A stretch of 64,000 nucleotides of DNA, from positions 1 through 64,000 of the IMG/VR virus record IMGVR_UViG_3300027759_000075; one strand, given 5' to 3'. Source of the stretch: a virus. Positions 5,635-53,896 of this stretch are shown in pieces. The first letter of the stretch is position 1. Each line of letters starts with the position of its first letter. The position numbers were made by a program, and so were the translations under genes. The notes below the pieces were generated by a model that did not search any database, had not been told where the DNA came from, and saw only the letters and a program-made list of their open reading frames with translations.

Positions 5635-6901
5635 ATTGGGGTAGGTAAGTTAAAATACTATTACCACGACTGGCTTCTAGTCGTTGTAAATAATATACAA
5701 GATCCGGTAACCTGTGGCTTTCGTCTGCAGCAAATTCAAGATAATTCAAATAACTTCTAGCATCTTGCACAATTTGTTCCTGAGCTCGATTTGGATCTCG
5801 AGTGTTGACGATTTGTTCACTGTTATTAACTAGGTGTGCGTCAATCCATGATTTTAGATTTTGAATTGCTATCTCACGTTGATATTTGGGCAACACACTG
5901 ATTCGAAAAAATGCAGGGTCATCAATAAAATTACAACTTTCTACAGCCGTGCCGTGTTGCCAGGCATAATCATACACTGTGGTCAACTCATGCACAGTCA
6001 AACAAGTGGGAGTGATTCTAAGTTGAATTAACCAGTTGTGTTTGTGCCCTAATGCGGTCCAGCGATCTAATAATTCTTGAGTCTGGGCCTGCTGACTAGG
6101 ATATCGCACATAGTCGTTGACAGGTGTAAGAGTTTCTACGCTCATGCCTAGATGCACTTGTTGAAATTGCGTTAACAACGCAACCACCGAATCTGACCAC
6201 ACAGTGAGATTAGTGGTGAACCCAATGGAGATGTTTTTAGCTAGGTCACTATCAACCAGTGCTGATAATATTTTTTTAAAGCCTGGAGTGATTACCGTTT
6301 CACCACCGAGAAAATGCAAGTATTGTAGATTAGGGCTTGATGTTAAATCCGTGACAAATCGATTTAACAACTCCGGATCATCGCACCAGCTTGCTGGTGG
6401 CACCTGATCAATTAGGCCTATACGTTTAAATTCTGTGGCCAAGGTGCTTGAGCTTTCAGGATTGCAAAACACACAGGCACCATTGCAATAGTTACCTAGA
6501 TCTATTTGCCAATCAGTCACAGTGCGAGTGGTGATACCTTGATTGTTATTGCTGTAGTCAAATGCCGTGCGTAATGGTGAACTGGCTAGACTTTTTTCAA
6601 AGTATTTGTCTTGTACTCCAACTTTGAGCAATTGGCGTTGTCTACCGCTGGGTTTACCGTGCTGTTCCATCACATGGCAATCATTACAAATTGCAGGTGC
6701 GGCTCCTTGTAACAATTCTGTTCTGACCCTGGCCATGTGTGTTTGAAAATATGTTTGCGGTGACACGGTTTTTATGTTGCGAGTAAAGTCAACCCGGGTA
6801 CCACCATCTTTGGCCATCCATCTACATGGTTCGTAGGTGCCCGAGTTTGTAATTCTCATGTGAAACCACGGGCTGGAGCAGAATGTTTTATCGAAACTCA
6901 T
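5603..6901 (-). CDS. Radical SAM enzyme (twitch/SPASM-like)
   Basis: 432 residues. The radical SAM signature C-N-G-A-C-V-F-C (CxxxCxxC) lies at residues 139-146 and would hold a [4Fe-4S] cluster for SAM cleavage. 'FLGGETV' about 60 residues later matches the GGE motif that binds SAM. Extra cysteines near the N-terminus (about residues 8, 26, 72 and 75) could hold an auxiliary cluster; putting them before the core is unusual, since SPASM cysteines normally follow it. Such proteins modify peptides or small molecules, and the substrate is unknown. It shares a TAATG junction with clpP upstream and overlaps an unknown gene downstream. A second enzyme of this class is at 54712-55848. Confidence 0.8.
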   Translation of the reverse strand: MSFDKTFCSSPWFHMRITNSGTYEPCRWMAKDGGTRVDFTRNIKTVSPQTYFQTHMARVRTELLQGAAPAICNDCHVMEQHGKPSGRQRQLLKVGVQDKYFEKSLASSPLRTAFDYSNNNQGITTRTVTDWQIDLGNYCNGACVFCNPESSSTLATEFKRIGLIDQVPPASWCDDPELLNRFVTDLTSSPNLQYLHFLGGETVITPGFKKILSALVDSDLAKNISIGFTTNLTVWSDSVVALLTQFQQVHLGMSVETLTPVNDYVRYPSQQAQTQELLDRWTALGHKHNWLIQLRITPTCLTVHELTTVYDYAWQHGTAVESCNFIDDPAFFRISVLPKYQREIAIQNLKSWIDAHLVNNSEQIVNTRDPNRAQEQIVQDARSYLNYLEFAADESHRLPDLVYYLQRLEASRGNSILTYLPQYEDLFRSAGY

Positions 6902-7491
6902 TAATCTCTTTTTGTAATAATCCTGTCGGCCAAGCCGTATGCAACTGCTTCCTCGGCACTCATAAAGTTATCACGTTCCATATCCGCAGTGAGTTCTTCA
7001 AAGGTTTTACTAGCGGTATTGTGCGTAACGTAAATCTCTGTTAGGTATTTTTTCATTTTAAGTATTTCTTGTGCTTGAATCTGGATATCTGTTGCTTGCC
7101 CATGTGTGCCTCCGCTGGGTTGGTGGATCATGTGTCGGGCATTGGGCAGAATCAACCGCTTGCCTGCGGCTCCGGCTTGTGCTAAACATGATCCCATACT
7201 ACATGCTTGTCCCATTACTACTGTGCTCACATCGGGTTTGATAAAGTTCATGGTATCATATATGGCCATCCCGGCCGTCACTTCGCCACCACCTGAATTA
7301 ACATACACATATATATCTTTGTCTGGATCTTCACTTTCCAAAAACAGCAGTTGAGCCACAATAACATGACTCATTTCGGTACTAATTGCACCATTGATAA
7401 AAACTGTTCTATCCTTTAACAACCTGGAAAAAATATCAAATGATCTTTCCCCTTTTGCTGTCTGCTCAATCACCATTGGAACTAAATTCAT
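6901..7491 (-). CDS. clpP: ATP-dependent Clp protease proteolytic subunit ClpP
   Basis: 196 residues, collinear with bacterial ClpP from '[21 protein letters not shown]' to the end. The catalytic triad is intact: Ser98 in GQACSMG, His123 in MIHQPSGG and Asp174 in MERDNF. The usual propeptide is nearly absent, so little or no processing is needed. ClpP forms two stacked heptamers and degrades substrates fed by a AAA+ partner; the same genome encodes ClpX (27143-28336) with an IGF loop and the adaptor ClpS (23638-23946). It may replace or compete with host ClpP. It shares a TAATG junction with the radical SAM gene downstream and is divergent from the 7542 gene. The 50 bp upstream holds CATAAATA on plus. 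Confidence 0.95.
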
Positions 7492-7541
7492 AATTTTACT
7501 TTCTATACATAAATAAACATACTAAACATAAACAAACCATT

Positions 7542-8270
7542 ATGCCAAAAACACTTACAACCGCAGATTTTATCAATAGAGCCAATAAAATACACAATAA
7601 TTTTTATGACTATTCACATGTAGTATACACTAACATGCACACTAAAGTCAAGATTATTGATCCAGAGCTAGGAGAATTTTGGCAAGCACCTTTAGGGCAC
7701 ATCGGACAAAAACAAGGGCACCCGGGCCGCCGTTATGTAAAAATGGCCAACAAACGACGCAAACCAATAGAAGTATTCATACAGCAATCAAGAGAAAAAC
7801 ACGGTGTTTTGTATGACTATTCAAAAGTTGTTTATACCACCGTTGATACTAAAGTATGTATCATTGACCCAGAGTATGGAGAATTTTGGCAAAGCCCATA
7901 TCAGCACCTAAATTCGCACGGTTGTCCGGCTAGAACTGCGGAAAAAAAGTGGGTCATACATTATGATCATATTATACCGTTGTCTATCTTAAACACAGCA
8001 AATAGATCATTTAACAAATGGTATATCAGTCGTCCATTATATAAATTTCTTAACAGCGATATAAATTTAAAACCAGTTACTGCAAAGTTTAATTGTGACA
8101 AAAGTGATTTTGTTACTATTAATGGAAAAAAAGTTTCTGCTAGTTCTGTTAGAAACAATTACAATATCATAGCTCATCTAATTAGTAAGCTATTAAATGT
8201 TGATCCTACAAAAATTATCAAAGAAGATCAACAATTTGTCAATGACTACTTTGGGATTAGTGATAAGTAA
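7542..8270 (+). CDS. Putative homing endonuclease with two Hef/DUF723-like repeats
   Basis: 242 residues in a conspicuously AT-rich gene. Two tandem repeats of about 50 residues are visible (about residues 10-60 and 77-130), each with 'F.DYS.VVYT...TKV.IIDPE.GEFWQ.P..H', the pattern of repeats in Hef-like homing endonucleases and related phage proteins. After them comes 'YDHIIPLSILN', which resembles the first part of an HNH-like site (D-H-x-x-P). The composition, location between two gene blocks of opposite strand, and lack of partners suggest a mobile free-standing nuclease. The cleavage target is not visible. Family assignment is from memory of the repeat pattern. Confidence 0.6.
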   Translation: MPKTLTTADFINRANKIHNNFYDYSHVVYTNMHTKVKIIDPELGEFWQAPLGHIGQKQGHPGRRYVKMANKRRKPIEVFIQQSREKHGVLYDYSKVVYTTVDTKVCIIDPEYGEFWQSPYQHLNSHGCPARTAEKKWVIHYDHIIPLSILNTANRSFNKWYISRPLYKFLNSDINLKPVTAKFNCDKSDFVTINGKKVSASSVRNNYNIIAHLISKLLNVDPTKIIKEDQQFVNDYFGISDK

Positions 8271-8275
8271 ACTAT

Positions 8276-9952
8276 ATGCGTGATATTCTAAACTTACTTG
8301 ATTCTATACTAACCGAAGCCGCCGGCGGCATGAGCAAAAGATGGCTGGAAAGCCAGCAAAGTCCCATCTACTTTTTGGATGTCCAGGGCAACAGATACAC
8401 CATAGACAATCTAGTATTATTTCCATTAGAGCAACCCGTTTTACCCGTGGCCGAGCTTGGTGTTGAAGTTGAAGACACTATCACTCAGATGGGGCTGACT
8501 CGGCAAAATATTACATTTGTAAATCGCATGCCGGCCAAACAAGGTGCAGGTATGCTTATCATCATGAAAGACCAAAACGGTAAATTGTTTCCGTTTTTCA
8601 AATTTTTTCCTAAACGTGAAATGGACCCCTTGGGCATGCACTATAGTCCAGCGGATTTTGAAAGAGAAACAGGTCTAGCTTGGCAACAAACTCGTGTCAC
8701 TGGTACAGGTAAAGATCGCAAAGAAGAAGTTATCAGCCGGATTGAACTAAAACCAAAACAAGCTGTGCCTACTAATACTAATTTGGCCATTTCGTCTGTG
8801 CCTGCACAGTCTTACACCAAGCTGGCCTCAGATCCCAAAGTAGGACCTGAACTGGCACAAAAATTGCAAACATTGCTGAAGAATACCCTCAACGGCAGTA
8901 CAGAACCTGTGCCAGGCTTGGTTCCTTACGAGCGAGATATCAGAGTAGACTTTGGAGAAGTAGCCGCTCCTTTGGGTCTAGTGGCTGGCGCTCACGTGGG
9001 AGGTAGTTACAGTAAGGTTCAAAACGAACTGTTAGGACCTTTGGGTGTGAGTTGGGGCTCGGCCAATCAGGTTTTTTACCCCGACGCTGGCAACGAACCA
9101 TTATATGACAGCCAGATCATGTGGCCCAATGGTGAAAAACTACGTATCAGCAACAAGGCCGAAGGCAAAGGCGGAGCCGCCAGCACTACTAGTATTTTAG
9201 AAATCATAGACAAATATCCCGAACGCTTTAGCAACGAAGACAAGGCCATGCTGGCGCCAGACGGTAAGTATGGAGATTTTGTTACGGCGTTGAGAACCAT
9301 TGCAGGCGCAAAAGGGTATGAAGGTCCAGTCAAGTTGGCGCAGGAATTTAAATATATTGATTCCGCTGATGCAGAAAACGCCCTGGAAAATCTTGCGGCC
9401 AAGACCAACGATATAAATTTGTTAACACCAAAGCTACAAGAGATTGTCAATGATAAAAGCATCTTTAATGCACAAACAGACAAACCCGACTACAAGGTCT
9501 GTTATAATGCAATTGCAAGTCTAGCAAGACTTGTAGTCAAACATCTCAATGCCGACATTGGTCTGACCACAGAATTCTTCAAGTTCATGTTGAGTCGTGC
9601 TAACTTGATCCAAGTCAATCAGTTCACAGAACGGAAAGATGATGGTGTGGCCTTCAGCAGATTTGATGTGATATGGCCTCCAAATTTCACAGGCAAGATC
9701 AAGTTCAGTGCAAGTGATTTCCAAAGCAATAAAAAAGCCACTTCACGCTTGGCGTTTAGTGTGGGCAACGAACGAGCCACCAAGACCAAAGATGCCGACA
9801 CACAAACACAAGAACCCAATACTGGGATTGCTGATCCAGAAAAACTAGATGCAGTCACTCAACAAAGAAGTGGTGTCACGGCCCGTGCTGGTGGTGTTGA
9901 TCCTGAGAAATTAGGCAGTGAAAAAACTCTTGGACGCAAACGTCAGAAATAA
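8276..9952 (+). CDS. Large phage protein, possibly an internal capsid protein
   Basis: 558 residues, first recognised here only by position and N-terminus. The leader 'MRDILNLLDSILTEAAG' is amphipathic and ends in L-T-E followed by alanine, which matches the (L/I)xE cleavage rule of the T4 prohead protease and recalls capsid-targeting leaders of T4 internal proteins. The middle contains 'GAHVGGSYSKVQNELLGPLGVSWG' and 'LRISNKAEGKGGAASTTSILEII', which look like an enzyme core (a nuclease-like S.K or E.K pattern is conceivable) but I cannot assign it. The C-terminal 60 residues are low complexity with two 'DPEKLG' repeats and a basic end. Six bases separate it from the GNAT-like gene. Confidence 0.5.
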   Translation: MRDILNLLDSILTEAAGGMSKRWLESQQSPIYFLDVQGNRYTIDNLVLFPLEQPVLPVAELGVEVEDTITQMGLTRQNITFVNRMPAKQGAGMLIIMKDQNGKLFPFFKFFPKREMDPLGMHYSPADFERETGLAWQQTRVTGTGKDRKEEVISRIELKPKQAVPTNTNLAISSVPAQSYTKLASDPKVGPELAQKLQTLLKNTLNGSTEPVPGLVPYERDIRVDFGEVAAPLGLVAGAHVGGSYSKVQNELLGPLGVSWGSANQVFYPDAGNEPLYDSQIMWPNGEKLRISNKAEGKGGAASTTSILEIIDKYPERFSNEDKAMLAPDGKYGDFVTALRTIAGAKGYEGPVKLAQEFKYIDSADAENALENLAAKTNDINLLTPKLQEIVNDKSIFNAQTDKPDYKVCYNAIASLARLVVKHLNADIGLTTEFFKFMLSRANLIQVNQFTERKDDGVAFSRFDVIWPPNFTGKIKFSASDFQSNKKATSRLAFSVGNERATKTKDADTQTQEPNTGIADPEKLDAVTQQRSGVTARAGGVDPEKLGSEKTLGRKRQK

Positions 9953-9957
9953 AGATC

Positions 9958-10293
9958 ATGAGAGCTCAAGAGTTTATTGCCGAGTCCGCCCAAGTTGAGC
10001 GTAATGGTATAACACTTGACTACCAGTTCAGTCCTGATCAACAAAAATTAAAGATTGTTGCATCGAGCAACGGTCGGCAACTAGGGTTTGCCGATTTTCA
10101 AAACTATGGGCCACTTGATCAACCTCAATACAAAGGTGATCAAGTTGAAGTAGATGAACGCTATCGTGGGCAGGGTATCGCTACTATAATGTATGACCTG
10201 GCTCGGGAGTTGGTAGGACAAATTTATCCCAGCCCGTCACAGACTGCGGATGGTGAACGATTCTGGAAGGGCAAACCGGTCTGGGAAGAATAA
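9958..10293 (+). CDS. Small GNAT-like acetyltransferase with a capsid-leader-like N-terminus
   Basis: 111 residues. 'VDERYRGQGIATIMYDLARELV' (about residues 61-83) matches the GNAT acetyl-CoA loop (R/Q-x-x-G-x-A), and 'GERFWKG' near the end is seen in small phage GNAT-like proteins. The beginning 'MRAQEFIAESA' closely resembles the T4 capsid-targeting sequence of Alt and the internal proteins (M-K-T-Y-Q-E-F-I-A-E from memory), with I-A-E preceding a possible cut. If it is processed and packaged, it would be injected with the DNA and could acetylate host proteins early; that is inference. It ends at a bidirectional terminator. Confidence 0.55.
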   Translation: MRAQEFIAESAQVERNGITLDYQFSPDQQKLKIVASSNGRQLGFADFQNYGPLDQPQYKGDQVEVDERYRGQGIATIMYDLARELVGQIYPSPSQTADGERFWKGKPVWEE

Positions 10294-10318
10294 AAAAGCT
10301 CCGTAACGGAGCTTTTTT
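10292..10318. terminator. Bidirectional Rho-independent terminator
   Basis: AAAAA-AGCTCCG-TAA-CGGAGCT-TTTTT: a 7 bp stem flanked by A and T runs, so it can work on both strands. It separates the plus block 7542-10293 from the minus gene starting at 10861. A sister copy (same AGCTCCG stem) is at 11674-11703. Confidence 0.85.
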
Positions 10319-10333
10319 GTAAATGCTGTGTAG

Positions 10334-10861
10334 TTAGTTACCTGACATTTTTTTCAAATAATTACCTAATTCCTCATAGCCGCCATGTGCTGCAGAATTT
10401 TTTGACCCGGCTGGATAGTGGTTCCACTCACCATAACGATCAACATTGATCTTTCCCTTGGTAGGATGAGTTAGTTCTGCACCGTAGGTGCTTTTGCGGT
10501 GGTCTAGGCCATGTTGCTTGGCCAGAGAGGAGAGCTCCGACTCTTCGTTAACTCGGCCTGCTAACTTATTGTATTCTTGCCGTAAGTTAATACCTAAGTC
10601 GTCCATAACTTCAGTAGTTGGAGGATTTTGGATTAGGTTGTGCAGTAACCACCATTCTTTAAGTCCTAATTCCATACTTTGATAGAATGCTTTTGCTGTT
10701 TTTTGTAGGTCTATAATATCATCTTCGCTATAACCGTCTTGTCCGGCTAACTTAGAGAGATTATTAGCATAACGAGCAAAAATTTTTGCTATTTGCTGAT
10801 TTGTCGATTCTTCGGCTTCTTTGATAAGTTCTATATATTTTCTGAAAAATTCTGTGCTCAT
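10334..10861 (-). CDS. Phage protein of unknown function, possible virion-internal protein
   Basis: 175 residues. It has a long helical N-terminal half and a C-terminal 'HGGYEELGNYLKKMSG'. The leader 'MSTEFFRKYIELIKEAEE' contains I-K-E followed by alanine, again compatible with a prohead-protease site. The ATG follows AAAGGAAATT, and ACATAAATA lies 24 bp upstream, so it is probably a late gene. No known domain recognised. Confidence 0.5.
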   Translation of the reverse strand: MSTEFFRKYIELIKEAEESTNQQIAKIFARYANNLSKLAGQDGYSEDDIIDLQKTAKAFYQSMELGLKEWWLLHNLIQNPPTTEVMDDLGINLRQEYNKLAGRVNEESELSSLAKQHGLDHRKSTYGAELTHPTKGKINVDRYGEWNHYPAGSKNSAAHGGYEELGNYLKKMSGN

Positions 10862-10881: not shown

Positions 10882-10889
10882 TATTATTT
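10882..10889 (-). promoter_or_regulatory. Candidate late promoter box (CATAAATA)
   Basis: On minus CATAAATA, about 20 bp before the ATG at 10861, with an AAAGGAAAT ribosome-binding site between. Motif match only; the exact edge may be off by a base or two. Confidence 0.45.
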
Positions 10890-10892
10890 ATG

Positions 10893-47644: not shown

Positions 47645-47980
47645 TTAAGAACGACGCTTCATTGCCGCTTTGGCATTAGAATCTACTACCGCACGGGCTT
47701 GGTCCACGCTCATGCCAGTAGCAACCTCTGTGTCACCTTTGAATCGAACCACATTAGAATTTGGTTCCAATGGCTCTAGTATGTTGCTCAGTGGTTCTTG
47801 ACTGATTAGGTCGCCTAAATTGTCTGCGGTAACATTCACTCCTAAACTCTTGGCTAGATCAATAAAAGCTGTTTGACTGATTTGTTTTTTGGCCGTTTCG
47901 TCTTGACTGCGTCCAAGCAAAAACTGGCTTAATGCAGCCAGTCGTTGTGTGTTAGGGTCTGCAACTTCGCGGATTAACAT
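47645..47980 (-). CDS. Phage protein of unknown function, virion-associated candidate
   Basis: 111 residues. 'MLIREVADPNTQRLAALSQFLLGR' resembles the short leader of neighbouring late genes ('MKLQELAVANPTKQAAKVF'). Helical, ending in basic 'KAAMKRRS'. It shares one base with the next gene. No recognised domain. Confidence 0.5.
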   Translation of the reverse strand: MLIREVADPNTQRLAALSQFLLGRSQDETAKKQISQTAFIDLAKSLGVNVTADNLGDLISQEPLSNILEPLEPNSNVVRFKGDTEVATGMSVDQARAVVDSNAKAAMKRRS

Positions 47981-48828
47981 TATCTACGTTCACGTCCTAG
48001 ACCAGCGGGTTCAATATTGGCATCCATTTCTGCATCAATATCTTCTTCACCGTTGACGGTTGGAATTTCAGCATCAATAGCAACTTCCTCTTGACCTGGC
48101 ACAGGTGGTGCAGGTTCTTCACCTGGAACAGTAGGAGCTTGCCCAGTTACTACGCCCAATGCCTGCTCCAGTTGAGTCTTGGCGCCTTGCAAATTTTGTA
48201 ACAGTCCAGCCAATGCAGCTGTAGCGTCTGTGTTAAACTGCATGGCTTGATCAACCCCAACTTCGTTCTTGATCTGGTCAACCAAGGCTGGTAAATCTTT
48301 AAACTGCATGGCACTGATTTGTTCACTCATTTTTTGCACTTGGTCAACCATGTCTTGACTGGCCAACACAACTTGAGCCTGCTGAACTTCGCTAGCTTCG
48401 CGCAATCGACGAGCAATTTTGCTTTCTGCCATGGCCATCATTGTAGGATCGTTCATTTGTTTTTGCAATTGGGCAATTTCTTCTTGTTTGGCTCGGATAG
48501 TGTCTTGTATTTGCTTTTTCTTTTGTTGAACCTGGGCGGCCATCAAGGCTTGTTGTTGTTGAGGATTAGCAGCGGGTTGACCTGCAACAGCTTGAGTGGC
48601 TAGAGCCTGCTCTAACATTACCAATTTAAGATATGCTGGGTTACGTTCACTTTGATGGAACTCAGGAGTGCGACGGTGTTCGCTGATCAATGAGCGTACA
48701 CGGTTTAATAGGCCTTGAGCTTGGCGGCGAGAAATAGTATCAAATTTGATACTGGTTCCAAAATAGCTTTCAAAAACCTTAGCGGCTTGTTTTGTTGGGT
48801 TGGCTACGGCCAGTTCTTGCAGTTTCAT
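47980..48828 (-). CDS. Helical phage protein with Gln-rich coiled coil, virion-associated candidate
   Basis: 282 residues. The N-terminal part 'FDTISRRQAQGLLNRVRSLISEHRRTPEFHQSERNPAYLKLVMLEQAL' is well conserved in my memory of T4-like marine phage genomes, though unnamed. Residues 85-150 are Gln-rich coiled coil, and the C-terminus is Pro- and Glu-rich and likely disordered. ATG behind AAAGGG, with a CTAAATAT box upstream within the next gene. A scaffolding or internal head role is possible. Confidence 0.55.
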   Translation of the reverse strand: MKLQELAVANPTKQAAKVFESYFGTSIKFDTISRRQAQGLLNRVRSLISEHRRTPEFHQSERNPAYLKLVMLEQALATQAVAGQPAANPQQQQALMAAQVQQKKKQIQDTIRAKQEEIAQLQKQMNDPTMMAMAESKIARRLREASEVQQAQVVLASQDMVDQVQKMSEQISAMQFKDLPALVDQIKNEVGVDQAMQFNTDATAALAGLLQNLQGAKTQLEQALGVVTGQAPTVPGEEPAPPVPGQEEVAIDAEIPTVNGEEDIDAEMDANIEPAGLGRERR

Positions 48829-50795: not shown

Positions 50796-52709
50796 TTAGG
50801 CTGGTTGTTTTGAGTTGTTTATTTCGCGATTGGCCGCTGTAAATCCACCGGCTAAGCGGTTAACAGCCTTGGCCATGCCGGCTCCTGTGGCCATTACCCA
50901 GCCTTCTTGACCCGGATGTTGTAGATCCAATTGATTTAAAATATCCATCTTGATATCGTGTAGCAAGACCCAGGCTGTAAATGCCGCGGCCATGCCATCT
51001 AAATTGCTACGTGGGCTTTGGATATATTCTACAATGTTGTTGAACTTTTTAGGGGTAACGTGTTGTTGGAGCCATGGTCCAAACTGCGCCAATAAATTAT
51101 CAAACCCAGTGCCTACTCTACTATTAATATAGTCTATACATAATCGAGGCAAATCAGTGATTTGTAATGCACGAAGATCTGTAGGATCAAACAGCTGATC
51201 AATTGCAGCACCTTGACTGTTGTACACATCTTTAACTTGCTGTACTAGCTGACGATTTGGTCGTACATTTTCTTTGGCATACACCGGCTCTAATAGCAGT
51301 AGTCCAGGAACCTGTTTAAAATCAACACGGCCAATAGGCTCTTTAGGAGAACCAGGTTCTGCATACCGTGTGTGCATGGCAATACCAACTTTGCTATTGG
51401 TAATACGTTGACCTACATCGCTTGCCACTGGAATTTTATATTCTACAGTGTTGGGTGTAAACACAAAATTACCGGCTTGTTCAGGAGGACGCTGTGTGTA
51501 CAACAGGTCGCCTTGCACATATCCTTTAAAATCTTTAGGAACAGCAGATTCTAACATGGGCCATAATTGAACATACAAAGGCAACAGTGTTTCAACGCGA
51601 GTAGCTGGTCGGCCTTGTGCTTCAGCATCACGATCACGCTGTTCCAAATGTCTTGCCACTTGTCGTGGACTTGTAAACAGACCATTATATCCTCGAGCTG
51701 TAAATCCTGATACATCAGTAAGAACAAATGTTCCCTCTGGATCACGACCAAATACTAGAGCAGGTTTGCCATCCCACTTGACTGTGGTGGTTTTGCCTGT
51801 GTCAGCTGAGGTATGTTTGACAATGTCTAGAGCTTTTTTAATACCTGCACTGCCGCTACGGAACACAAGATCTTCTAAGTGTTCGATGCCTTTGGCACGG
51901 CCGCCTTGAACCTCGGCTTCAACAATGACCTGCATGCCTTGATTCACAATACGATCACGTAGTTTGGCTAAGAAGTTTACATCACTAACCGGTTGATATA
52001 GTTCTGCACTTTCAAGGAATGGCAGGCCTTCGCGTTCCATGTGTTGTTTAAAGTCTGCTAATTTAGCGTCACGGTTGGGATCTGTGCTAAGTGCTTGTAG
52101 AATTGTTTCTACACTGGCCAAGTCTTGACGTGTAGCTGTTTTATTCAATAATAATTTGGCTACAGCATCTGGATTGTCAGTAATAATTTTGTTGGTGGCA
52201 CGATCAGCAATTCCAGCAATTTGATTCAATTTGTAACCCATGCTTTTGGCAACTGAATTCATTAGCACATTGCGCTCACGACCTTTGTACTTTGAATCTG
52301 TGGGCATGGCACCAAGTACAAATTTGCTCCAAGGTATGTTGTTTAAAAACATAAAGTCTGTTTGCACATACCCTAGGTCTGGACGACCGTTGATAGGTGT
52401 TTTAAAATGTACGCCAGCGCCGGTTTGTTTGACCCAGTCTTCGGGTTTTTGTTTTTGGCTGGTTGCCCAGCGTGTTAATTGTGCTATTAATTGTTCTTTG
52501 GTTAATTGTTTGGCGTCAACAGCAATATCCAAATCGCCTGAGGTGTCTTTAATGCCGGTTGATCCCAGGGTGTTGTTTTGTAGGTCAAGTCCTGGCAACA
52601 TTTGCTCAAGCCATGCTAGGGTTGTTTTTACGTCAGTCTGATTAATGCGTTGGGTTAACGCACGGCCGTTGCCGTCTTTGAACACATTACCGCCTTCAAG
52701 TATGTTCAT
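50796..52709 (-). CDS. Nucleotidyltransferase plus ligase-like fusion protein
   Basis: 637 residues. The N-terminus has a pol-beta-type nucleotidyltransferase motif: 'LGSTGIKDTSGDLDIAV' gives G-S (49-50) and D59-L-D61, with a third Asp118 in 'VQTDFMF'. From about 300, 'TTTVKWDGKPALVFG' has K311-W-D-G, the adenylation motif of DNA/RNA ligases and capping enzymes; 'GYVQGDLLY' and 'NTVEYKIPV' may be motifs III and IV. The remaining C-terminus is helical. Two nucleotidyl-transfer modules in one protein suggest RNA or DNA end repair or a modification role. The gene lies in a virion-like block with no other replication gene beside it. Motif-based; function not demonstrated. Confidence 0.6.
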   Translation of the reverse strand: MNILEGGNVFKDGNGRALTQRINQTDVKTTLAWLEQMLPGLDLQNNTLGSTGIKDTSGDLDIAVDAKQLTKEQLIAQLTRWATSQKQKPEDWVKQTGAGVHFKTPINGRPDLGYVQTDFMFLNNIPWSKFVLGAMPTDSKYKGRERNVLMNSVAKSMGYKLNQIAGIADRATNKIITDNPDAVAKLLLNKTATRQDLASVETILQALSTDPNRDAKLADFKQHMEREGLPFLESAELYQPVSDVNFLAKLRDRIVNQGMQVIVEAEVQGGRAKGIEHLEDLVFRSGSAGIKKALDIVKHTSADTGKTTTVKWDGKPALVFGRDPEGTFVLTDVSGFTARGYNGLFTSPRQVARHLEQRDRDAEAQGRPATRVETLLPLYVQLWPMLESAVPKDFKGYVQGDLLYTQRPPEQAGNFVFTPNTVEYKIPVASDVGQRITNSKVGIAMHTRYAEPGSPKEPIGRVDFKQVPGLLLLEPVYAKENVRPNRQLVQQVKDVYNSQGAAIDQLFDPTDLRALQITDLPRLCIDYINSRVGTGFDNLLAQFGPWLQQHVTPKKFNNIVEYIQSPRSNLDGMAAAFTAWVLLHDIKMDILNQLDLQHPGQEGWVMATGAGMAKAVNRLAGGFTAANREINNSKQPA

Positions 52710-53896
52710 TAGAGACCCTGAAAACCCATTAGTAGTAACAATCCATCCGCCGCAGGGTTGCCTGTTGATTTTACTTGTTTAGTGCCAGTTAGTTTTGCCG
52801 CTGTTGCGCCAAGTGCCGGTAGGCCTTTAGCAATTGCTGGATCCAGTTGTTGTTTTAATGTTTGTGCCATTCCTTCTGCATCTTGAGTGCTGCCCTGAGT
52901 ACCACCCGGTGCAATAGTTGACTGACCGGTGGCATTGCCGTTGCCTGCGCCCGGAGCTGATGTTTGTGCCAATCCTGCCTGTTGAACCAATTGTTTAAAT
53001 AATTCTTTTTCGTTGGTCGGTGCAACAGCAGGTGCAGGTGCTGCTGGTGTTGCAGGTGCGGGGGTTGCCGGTGGTTTAGCAGTTGCTGGTGTTGCAGGTG
53101 TAGGTTGACCAGCAACCGGTGCTGGTGCGTTTCTTTGCGCCGATCTTGCTGCCAATCCGCCAACAGGTCGTGCTGTGGGTTTTACAGTAGGGATTGCTTC
53201 TTCAAGATCCGATGTCATTCCTTGTATTCCACCTTTTGGTTTACCATATGCCTTTATTGTATTTTTTCCTTTAGGACTGTTGGCAACACTGGCAGGCATC
53301 TGTCCAGGTTTTGCTGGTGCAGTGGCAGAAGGAACTCTACCAAATGTTGCCGCAGGTTTCTGTCCTTGCACTTGTTGTTGTAGAGCTGTTGCTTGTTGCA
53401 ATGGTGTTTGTTGTGGCTGATTAGGATTGCCTGATTTAGCTACATTAGTTTTACTAATTGGGGCCGTGGCCGCGCCGGCACTTGCGGTATTAGTTTGTGT
53501 TGCAGGCGGTTGTTGTGCAGGTGCCCCACTATTGCTTATTTGTTTGACCAGACTGACAATTTTATCTTTGTTAATAACATTTGGCAAATACATACCACCA
53601 AGTAAATTTTTGTTTACAAATGCTAATAATGCTTGTTCAAGTTGCCCGTTTGCACGGGCATTTGGATTGGTTCTTAGCAACTGTCTTTCATATTTTTTCC
53701 ATATAGGATAGGCCTTATTAAACAGCTCACCAGTTTTACGATCTGCAGATGCATCTTGATAAGCACCTTTAAAATTTGAAACAGCACCGCCTACTTTTTG
53801 AGCGGCTCCCTTGGCTTTGTTTGCAATCCATTCAGAAGGAAGTGTAACTTCTTCTAGTTCAAATTGTTTCTTTTTTGTTAGTTCATGAATTTGCAT
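52709..53896 (-). CDS. Pro/Ala-rich linker protein, virion-associated candidate
   Basis: 395 residues. A leader 'MQIHELTKKKQFELEEVTLP' (L-E-E before V) and a helical N-terminal part up to about 110 precede a long disordered region of Gln, Ala, Pro and Thr, with a repeated T-P-A-T/P-A-P-A stretch (about 265-295). The C-terminus (about 340-395) is helical with 'GNPAADGLLLLMGFQGL'. Such proteins occur as internal head or tail-length-related parts. It shares one base with the next gene. Confidence 0.5.
   Translation of the reverse strand: MQIHELTKKKQFELEEVTLPSEWIANKAKGAAQKVGGAVSNFKGAYQDASADRKTGELFNKAYPIWKKYERQLLRTNPNARANGQLEQALLAFVNKNLLGGMYLPNVINKDKIVSLVKQISNSGAPAQQPPATQTNTASAGAATAPISKTNVAKSGNPNQPQQTPLQQATALQQQVQGQKPAATFGRVPSATAPAKPGQMPASVANSPKGKNTIKAYGKPKGGIQGMTSDLEEAIPTVKPTARPVGGLAARSAQRNAPAPVAGQPTPATPATAKPPATPAPATPAAPAPAVAPTNEKELFKQLVQQAGLAQTSAPGAGNGNATGQSTIAPGGTQGSTQDAEGMAQTLKQQLDPAIAKGLPALGATAAKLTGTKQVKSTGNPAADGLLLLMGFQGL

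Follow-up and report, generated by a model that had tools for sequence, protein, structure and literature searches.

Candidate capsid-targeting leaders on a small acetyltransferase and a neighbouring protein of an uncultured giant phage

Three neighbouring genes in the IMG/VR virus record IMGVR_UViG_3300027759_000075 start with short leaders that recall those of T4 internal head proteins, which raises the question whether such leaders mark proteins that are packed into the phage head and injected into the host. The stretch analysed here, the window, comprises positions 1 to 64,000 of this record, which is 74,332 bases long (G000) and is without head genes. An earlier note on the window had read the leaders of a GNAT-like protein, of the protein starting at 8276 and of the 10334 protein as capsid-targeting signals cut by a gp21-type protease. 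The three N-termini read off the sequence are exactly those it stated: MRAQEFIAE|SA for the GNAT protein, MRDILNLLDSILTE|AA for the 8276 protein (leader end S-I-L-T-E|A) and MSTEFFRKYIELIKE|AE for the 10334 protein (leader end E-L-I-K-E|A). We retain its interpretation for two of the three. It is quite probable, in our view, that the GNAT and 8276 leaders are a T4-type capsid-targeting and gp21-processing signal and that both proteins are packaged and processed. For the GNAT protein, capsid targeting with gp21-type cleavage has good support, a strict motif occurring 20 times against 0.006 expected; for the 8276 protein it has support from conservation, and the 10334 leader is at chance level.

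The phage is an uncultured freshwater giant phage with a head distantly related to that of T4. No DNA relatives of the window were found among 50,697 phage records. Our comparison is with G001, a 349,369-base relative in IMG/VR that was found via the 8276 protein and read whole, with nine further related records, and with a cultured relative, the Pseudomonas phage PA5oct (Arenbergviridae). Genes of G001 and the nine records were called with a simple caller.

Leaders in the window and in related records

The GNAT leader and T4 together define the strict motif MRxxEF[ILVF]xE. This motif starts 20 of 1,750 non-identical proteins of the related records, compared with a mean of 0.006 and a maximum of 1 in 500 shuffled runs, and it is found at none of 8,084 internal methionines. 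After removal of the leaders, the 32 proteins of a wider leader set fall into 15 BLAST groups, and at least eight of these carry the strict leader. The same leader module recurs on proteins whose bodies are unrelated. For two conserved families, mean leader identity is 73% and 82%, as opposed to 47% and 49% for the bodies, and the invariant leader residues are encoded by different synonymous codons; the higher identity of the leader and the variation of its codons indicate that it is kept at the protein level. Homologues of the GNAT protein keep the leader as well, as MRFKEFITE in G005 and MRAQEFVGE in G001. On the 35.6-kb relative L044, neighbouring genes start MKASEFITE, MRFKEFITE, MRLREF, MRFYEILE and MRANEFIVE, and the protein starting MRFKEFITE is homologous to the GNAT protein, with 44% identity over residues 1-110.

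The likeness to T4 extends to the predicted cut itself. The T4 genome gives MKTYQEFIAEA as the start of both IPII and IPIII, which share QEFIAE with the GNAT leader; the P5-P1 residues of the GNAT leader, E-F-I-A-E|S, equal those of IPII and IPIII. The T4 leader is the capsid-targeting sequence of these proteins (Mullaney and Black 1996; PMC9026906; PMC3012670). Hydrophobic residues at P4 and P3 and a Glu at P1, as expected of such a sequence, are present in the GNAT and 8276 leaders and also in that of the 10334 protein, there at chance level. Residues 4 and 7 of IPIII matter most for targeting and residues 8 and 10 for processing; a change of Glu10 to Asp stops the processing but leaves packaging intact (PMC9026906). 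T4 internal-protein genes have earlier been identified by the same leader signal (PMC12373910).

A second type of leader starts the 8276 protein, and here conservation across the family places it above chance. All close homologues retain the leader, and each of the eight distinct family members in the comparison, the window protein among them, has L-x-E|[A/S], down to 25% identity. These include the distant homologues G006_143330 (hhalign probability 96.5, 25% identity), which starts MREFITLLDQLNE|S, and G009_135502 (45 bits), which starts MIRNLLDKFDLLTE|S. This type of leader is only partly found on unrelated bodies, namely in the 8276 family and on a superoxide dismutase (SOD) of G006 (MRDIITLLEE).

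A looser form of the motif, Mx(4-12)[LIV]xE, starts 17 of 100 G000 proteins compared with 10.9 +/- 2.95 after shuffling of residues 2-21. By itself such a match carries little weight, since shuffled N-termini match nearly as often, and for this reason we rejected it as proof for the 10334 protein. The strict motif of the GNAT leader lies far above chance. For the 10334 protein it is more likely than not that an ordinary helical N-terminus, unconnected to the head, matches by chance. Its sole partial relative does not cover the N-terminus, and a search of the 50,697 phage records gave no match. Two observations speak for the leader nevertheless: a late-type ATAAATA lies at about 10885-10891, 23 bases upstream of the gene, and similar long leaders are found on G001_7979 and on the SOD of PA5oct.

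The GNAT-like call of the earlier note was borne out by the body of the protein. Pfam PF00583 matches with 27.0 bits (cut-off 20.7), and an AlphaFold model based on three sequences (pLDDT 81) has low confidence for residues 1-7 and the GNAT fold from residue 9. Foldseek searches against the PDB return GNATs at probability 1.00, the first being an integron-cassette protein and a RimI-type enzyme; among the top folds are RimI-type acetyltransferases of ribosomal proteins and acetyltransferases of small molecules. The predicted acetyl-CoA loop, RGQGIA, has the form R/Q-x-x-G-x-G/A and directly precedes an invariant TIMYD. Among the 50,697 phage records the only match is a distant one, inside a protein called ADP-ribosyltransferase of a 308-kb soil phage. 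The gene starts five bases after the 8276 gene, and both belong to a plus-strand operon opening at 7542. The GNAT group among the BLAST groups is joined partly by a common kinase-like domain and not by GNAT alone. Leader proteins at L044:4001-4912 and L136:507-1604 fuse GNAT, or a DUF6934-like domain, to a kinase-like domain, which has a weak Kinase-PolyVal match below the cut-off.

Head machinery and virion proteins of the relatives

Cleavage of the leaders would depend on a gp21-type protease, and the earlier note had proposed to look for a homologue outside the window. No S77 (gp21) protease was found in the 74-kb fragment G000, but the close relatives do have one: G001 encodes it (E=2e-23), as do G006, G007, G008, G010 and PA5oct, and the relatives' protease keeps the gp21 blocks LGE[VL]DHP and GVSSRG. 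The head module of G001 has the order portal, 72-aa protein, core protein, protease, scaffold and major capsid protein, which is repeated in G006, G007, G008, G010 and PA5oct and is much like the T4 order gp20, gp67, gp68, gp21, gp22, gp23. The capsid protein of this module is homologous to T4 gp23 (E=1e-40). L-x-E immediately precedes the mature domain, at the expected cut, in every one of 27 aligned capsid proteins (LKE|N, LAE|S, LSE|S, LVE|N, LME|T).

Evidence from virions comes from PA5oct, where the deposited record marks 93 genes 'ESI-MS/MS', which we take to be virion proteomics by mass spectrometry (MS). Homologues of several leader-bearing families are MS-detected in this phage, namely those of the G001_131297 family (MKTFANYLAE|S) and of the families of G006_120507 (MRATEFITE) and G007_678 (MRATEFLIE). 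The SOD of PA5oct (gp223), with a leader of its own, MNDSIKKYISIAE|A, is also marked. Counted by family with pattern C, 12 of 16 families with a leader are MS-positive compared with 37 of 92 without (p=0.010), and with the a priori core pattern all four are (p=0.04). The leader module, the match with T4, the relatives' protease and capsid cut motif, and the MS detection of the families are together the reason why we take the GNAT and 8276 proteins to be packaged and trimmed.

Several points weigh against this interpretation. No protease was found in the window record, and the link runs through the relatives. The cut after the leaders of the GNAT protein, the 8276 protein and the other tagged proteins is a prediction. 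The MS list of PA5oct includes possible contaminants, such as ribonucleotide reductase and thymidylate synthase, and among the four core-pattern matches the baseplate-type protein G001_39206, of 4,900 aa, probably matches by chance. Within PA5oct pattern A is not enriched (2 of 93 MS-detected genes vs 6 of 472, p=0.39), and the other three patterns give p=0.053, 0.005 and 0.0008, uncorrected for four tries. The strict MRxxEF leader is absent from PA5oct, whose leaders differ (MKINDIITE, MKIKDILVE), and homologues of the GNAT or 8276 proteins were not found in this phage.

The SOD merits a separate remark. An Fe/Mn SOD with an added leader is found in G001, G004, G006 and PA5oct (L185:22979-23527, which is gp223; L023:1841-2401; L136:1601-2155), and gp223 is annotated as hypothetical. 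A Vibrio phage SOD aligns well and lacks the leader, which marks the leader as an added segment. The leader-bearing SOD of these four phages is probably virion-borne.

Packaging, injection and the alternatives

The proposed sequence of events follows the T4 model. During head assembly the leader would draw the tagged protein into the prohead core, and within the head a gp21-family protease would cut after phi-x-E, so that the mature head would hold the GNAT protein shortened to about 102 residues, together with the 8276 protein minus its first 14. At infection both proteins would exit the head with the DNA, and the GNAT protein might then acetylate a host protein early in infection. By analogy with the T4 internal proteins, we lean towards ejection of the two proteins into the host, with less assurance than for their packaging. 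Acetylation of a host protein is a tentative proposal, and RNA polymerase, a ribosomal protein or a defence protein would be first guesses for an early target. An action analogous to that of Alt, with acetylation replacing ADP-ribosylation as the earlier note had suggested, is a plausible inference.

The alternative that survives best for these two proteins is that the leader is an uncut docking tag for virion assembly generally (core, neck, tail) and that the proteins stay as minor structural parts. Leader families do occur among tail and neck genes, for example G001_131297, which adjoins tube and sheath genes, and PA5oct labels homologues of such families structural. However, the leader ends exactly in the protease P3-x-P1 motif that is also present at the capsid-protein cut site, and no structural role is apparent for enzymes like GNAT and SOD. 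We therefore regard an uncut tag as unlikely.

Late expression is needed for packaging and fits the motifs in the operon (Table 1), although it does not prove packaging. The motif ATAAATA resembles the T4 late promoter, TATAAATA, and in PA5oct it lies upstream of 24 of 93 MS-detected genes vs 17 of 472 others (p=1.6e-10). That the GNAT and 8276 proteins act late in the infected cell, their leaders being incidental N-terminal helices or a translation-level feature, would suit these late-type motifs, which also fit a late cytoplasmic role, and the chance frequency of the loose motif, but it is very improbable for a strict motif found at no internal methionine and in hardly any shuffles, and for a leader that unrelated bodies share and that is conserved as protein while its codons vary.

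Returning to packaging with cleavage, the closest known counterparts are T4 IPII and IPIII. Common to both are a leader of 9-10 residues ending in EFIAE before a small residue, a gp21-type protease and a gp23-type capsid protein in the phage group, and a constant leader on varying bodies. The clade consensus, MRAxEF[ILV]xE, differs in lacking the Tyr4 of T4, and the clade bodies are enzymes (GNAT, SOD) and families of no known function, whereas the T4 bodies are small type IV restriction inhibitors (PMC12373910). With T4 Alt, an ADP-ribosyltransferase that is packaged and then ejected, the GNAT protein would share being a protein-modifying enzyme with a cleavable N-terminal leader for packaging, as predicted from its sequence. 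It differs in its fold, which is GNAT and not the ADP-ribosyltransferase (ART) fold of an Alt-like RNA polymerase modifier, and a C-terminal cut is not shown for it. The leader differs too: the MKTYQEFIAE form that the earlier note had ascribed to both the internal proteins and Alt holds for IPII and IPIII, and the GNAT leader is of this nine-residue type, whereas Alt is cut after ITE-6 (PMC5694885). At most, the GNAT protein may resemble Alt in its working mode.

Phage GNATs that act, or are predicted to act, on host proteins have been described before. Rac of phiKMV-type phages, like the window protein a phage GNAT with a proposed target in the host, acts on the alpha subunit of host RNA polymerase (PMC7552054); we came across no mention of a leader or of packaging for Rac. 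GNATs of injected polyvalent proteins and jumbo phages are predicted to modify host proteins (PMC5512222; PMC7824862). These domains are likewise predicted to be delivered with the phage DNA, with solo versions near structural genes, but the prediction comes from domain and gene context, whereas the window GNAT has a specific packaging signal and is a single small domain. PA5oct shares the head module and has leader-bearing families marked in its deposited record, with leaders of the different form M[KR][IL]x[DE][IF]..E.

The signal, the protease logic and the idea of injected modifying enzymes have precedents. The novelty lies in the members, namely a tagged GNAT, a tagged SOD and many tagged families of no known function in a widespread uncultured giant-phage clade, and in the clade-specific leader consensus. 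Injected proteins of giant phages cannot be guessed from gene names, and a readable packaging signal yields a candidate list: genes of the clade starting MRAxEF[ILV]xE or related forms are candidate injected effectors that proteomics can test directly. The leader also gives a sequence-level reason for placing GNAT and SOD inside a phage head. It is a more speculative idea, and a rather doubtful one at present, that the clade keeps an arsenal of leader-tagged enzymes packed in the head (GNAT, SOD, a fusion of GNAT with a kinase-like domain, and a RegB/colicin-E5-like protein) which would act on the host before phage gene expression, with acetylation of proteins by virion-borne enzymes as a mode of takeover. 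We found no demonstration of virion-borne protein acetylation as takeover in any phage.

Other candidates and neighbouring genes

Table 1. Features of the window discussed in the text, in window positions
Feature	Positions	Strand	Description
ATAAATA, late-promoter-like	7509..7515	+	precedes the operon 7542-8276-9958
Endonuclease-like protein (HNH/homing type)	7542..8270	+	opens the operon; PHROG endonuclease matches
ATAAGTA variant	8263..8269	+	just 5' of 8276; also upstream of the homologues checked (L002, L003, L004, L006, L008)
8276 protein	8276..9952	+	558 aa; basic C-terminal tail ...TLGRKRQK; conserved DSxI..SxKxxGKG block
Second-type leader MRDILNLLDSILTE	8276..8317	+	predicted cut after E14
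GNAT protein	9958..10293	+	minimal acetyltransferase, 111 aa; 102 aa predicted after cleavage
GNAT leader MRAQEFIAE	9958..9984	+	candidate capsid-targeting leader; predicted cut after E9
10334 protein	10334..10861	-	175 aa; loose leader MSTEFFRKYIELIKE|A; membership unproven
Virion-protein family member	47980..48828	-	start MKLQELAVANPTKQAAKVFE|S (MKLQEL...VFE|S)
DUF6267 protein	50796..52709	-	Pfam PF19782; very short leader MNILE|GG
52709 protein	52709..53896	-	395 aa; loose leader MQIHELTKKKQFELEE|V; possible member

Two window proteins that the earlier note had missed are better-supported candidates, with families that are MS-detected in PA5oct. Homologues of the 50796 protein start MRLLE|GG, MTYHVITE|GG and MINRLLE|GG, and the PA5oct homologue, gp253, is marked 'ESI-MS/MS'. 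The PA5oct homologue of the 47980 protein, gp247 (MFLKDVKITE|S), is a virion structural protein and carries the same mark. The looser leader that had been pointed out on the 52709 protein is present but weak. A gene of G003 in the matching position starts similarly, with MQIHEITRRNINE|G, and its body has no detectable similarity; the region is syntenic with PA5oct gp257-gp259, where gp257 and gp258 are MS-positive. We consider the 52709 protein a fair candidate for a tagged protein.

The body of the 8276 protein has no Pfam or PHROG match, no match in a PDB profile search and none among the 50,697 phage records. Its relatives are seven loci in IMG/VR with 70-88% identity, one of them in G001, and a model based on a six-sequence alignment has low confidence (pLDDT 44). 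A nuclease-type (PD-(D/E)XK-like) reading of its conserved block was considered and drew no support from any search. Homologues in G001, G003, G006 and G009 adjoin a ClpP-like gene; in the window a ClpP-like gene is also near, with the endonuclease gene in between. This endonuclease gene is not found beside the homologues in those four records and is probably an insertion outside the system. The ClpP-like protease of the window is encoded at 6901-7491, and the homologue in PA5oct bears the label head maturation protease and is among the MS-detected proteins.

Further leader-bearing proteins were observed in the relatives. A run of MKxxEF/MRxxEF leaders at L044:3441-7205 adjoins a Dps/ferritin-like protein (PF00210) and looks like a cargo cluster. 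A 119-aa protein at L146:1596-1955 has weak matches to T4 RegB and to colicin E5 ribonuclease (E 0.011 and 0.039), and a 138-aa protein at L146:262-678 resembles an ADP-ribosyltransferase by eye, for which Pfam gives no support. At L017:14261-15015, adjacent leader proteins of 123 and 128 aa, which are conserved in several relatives, have a common C-terminal tail, SPVKAFKGYPR; they are likely core head proteins of the clade, and the 123-aa protein has no match among the 50,697 phage records. Between the domains of multidomain G001 proteins (L025:4693-14597) QGVAEG occurs 4 times vs 0.008 expected, and QGVAE is found in G004 (L035:6950-7795). These repeats are possibly internal protease sites or a recombining linker; as further cut sites in the window they were rejected, since they do not occur in the window record. 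Finally, a cluster of glycosyltransferase-like and sugar-epimerase-like genes (L001:4140-11110) lies at the right end of the record that contains the window.

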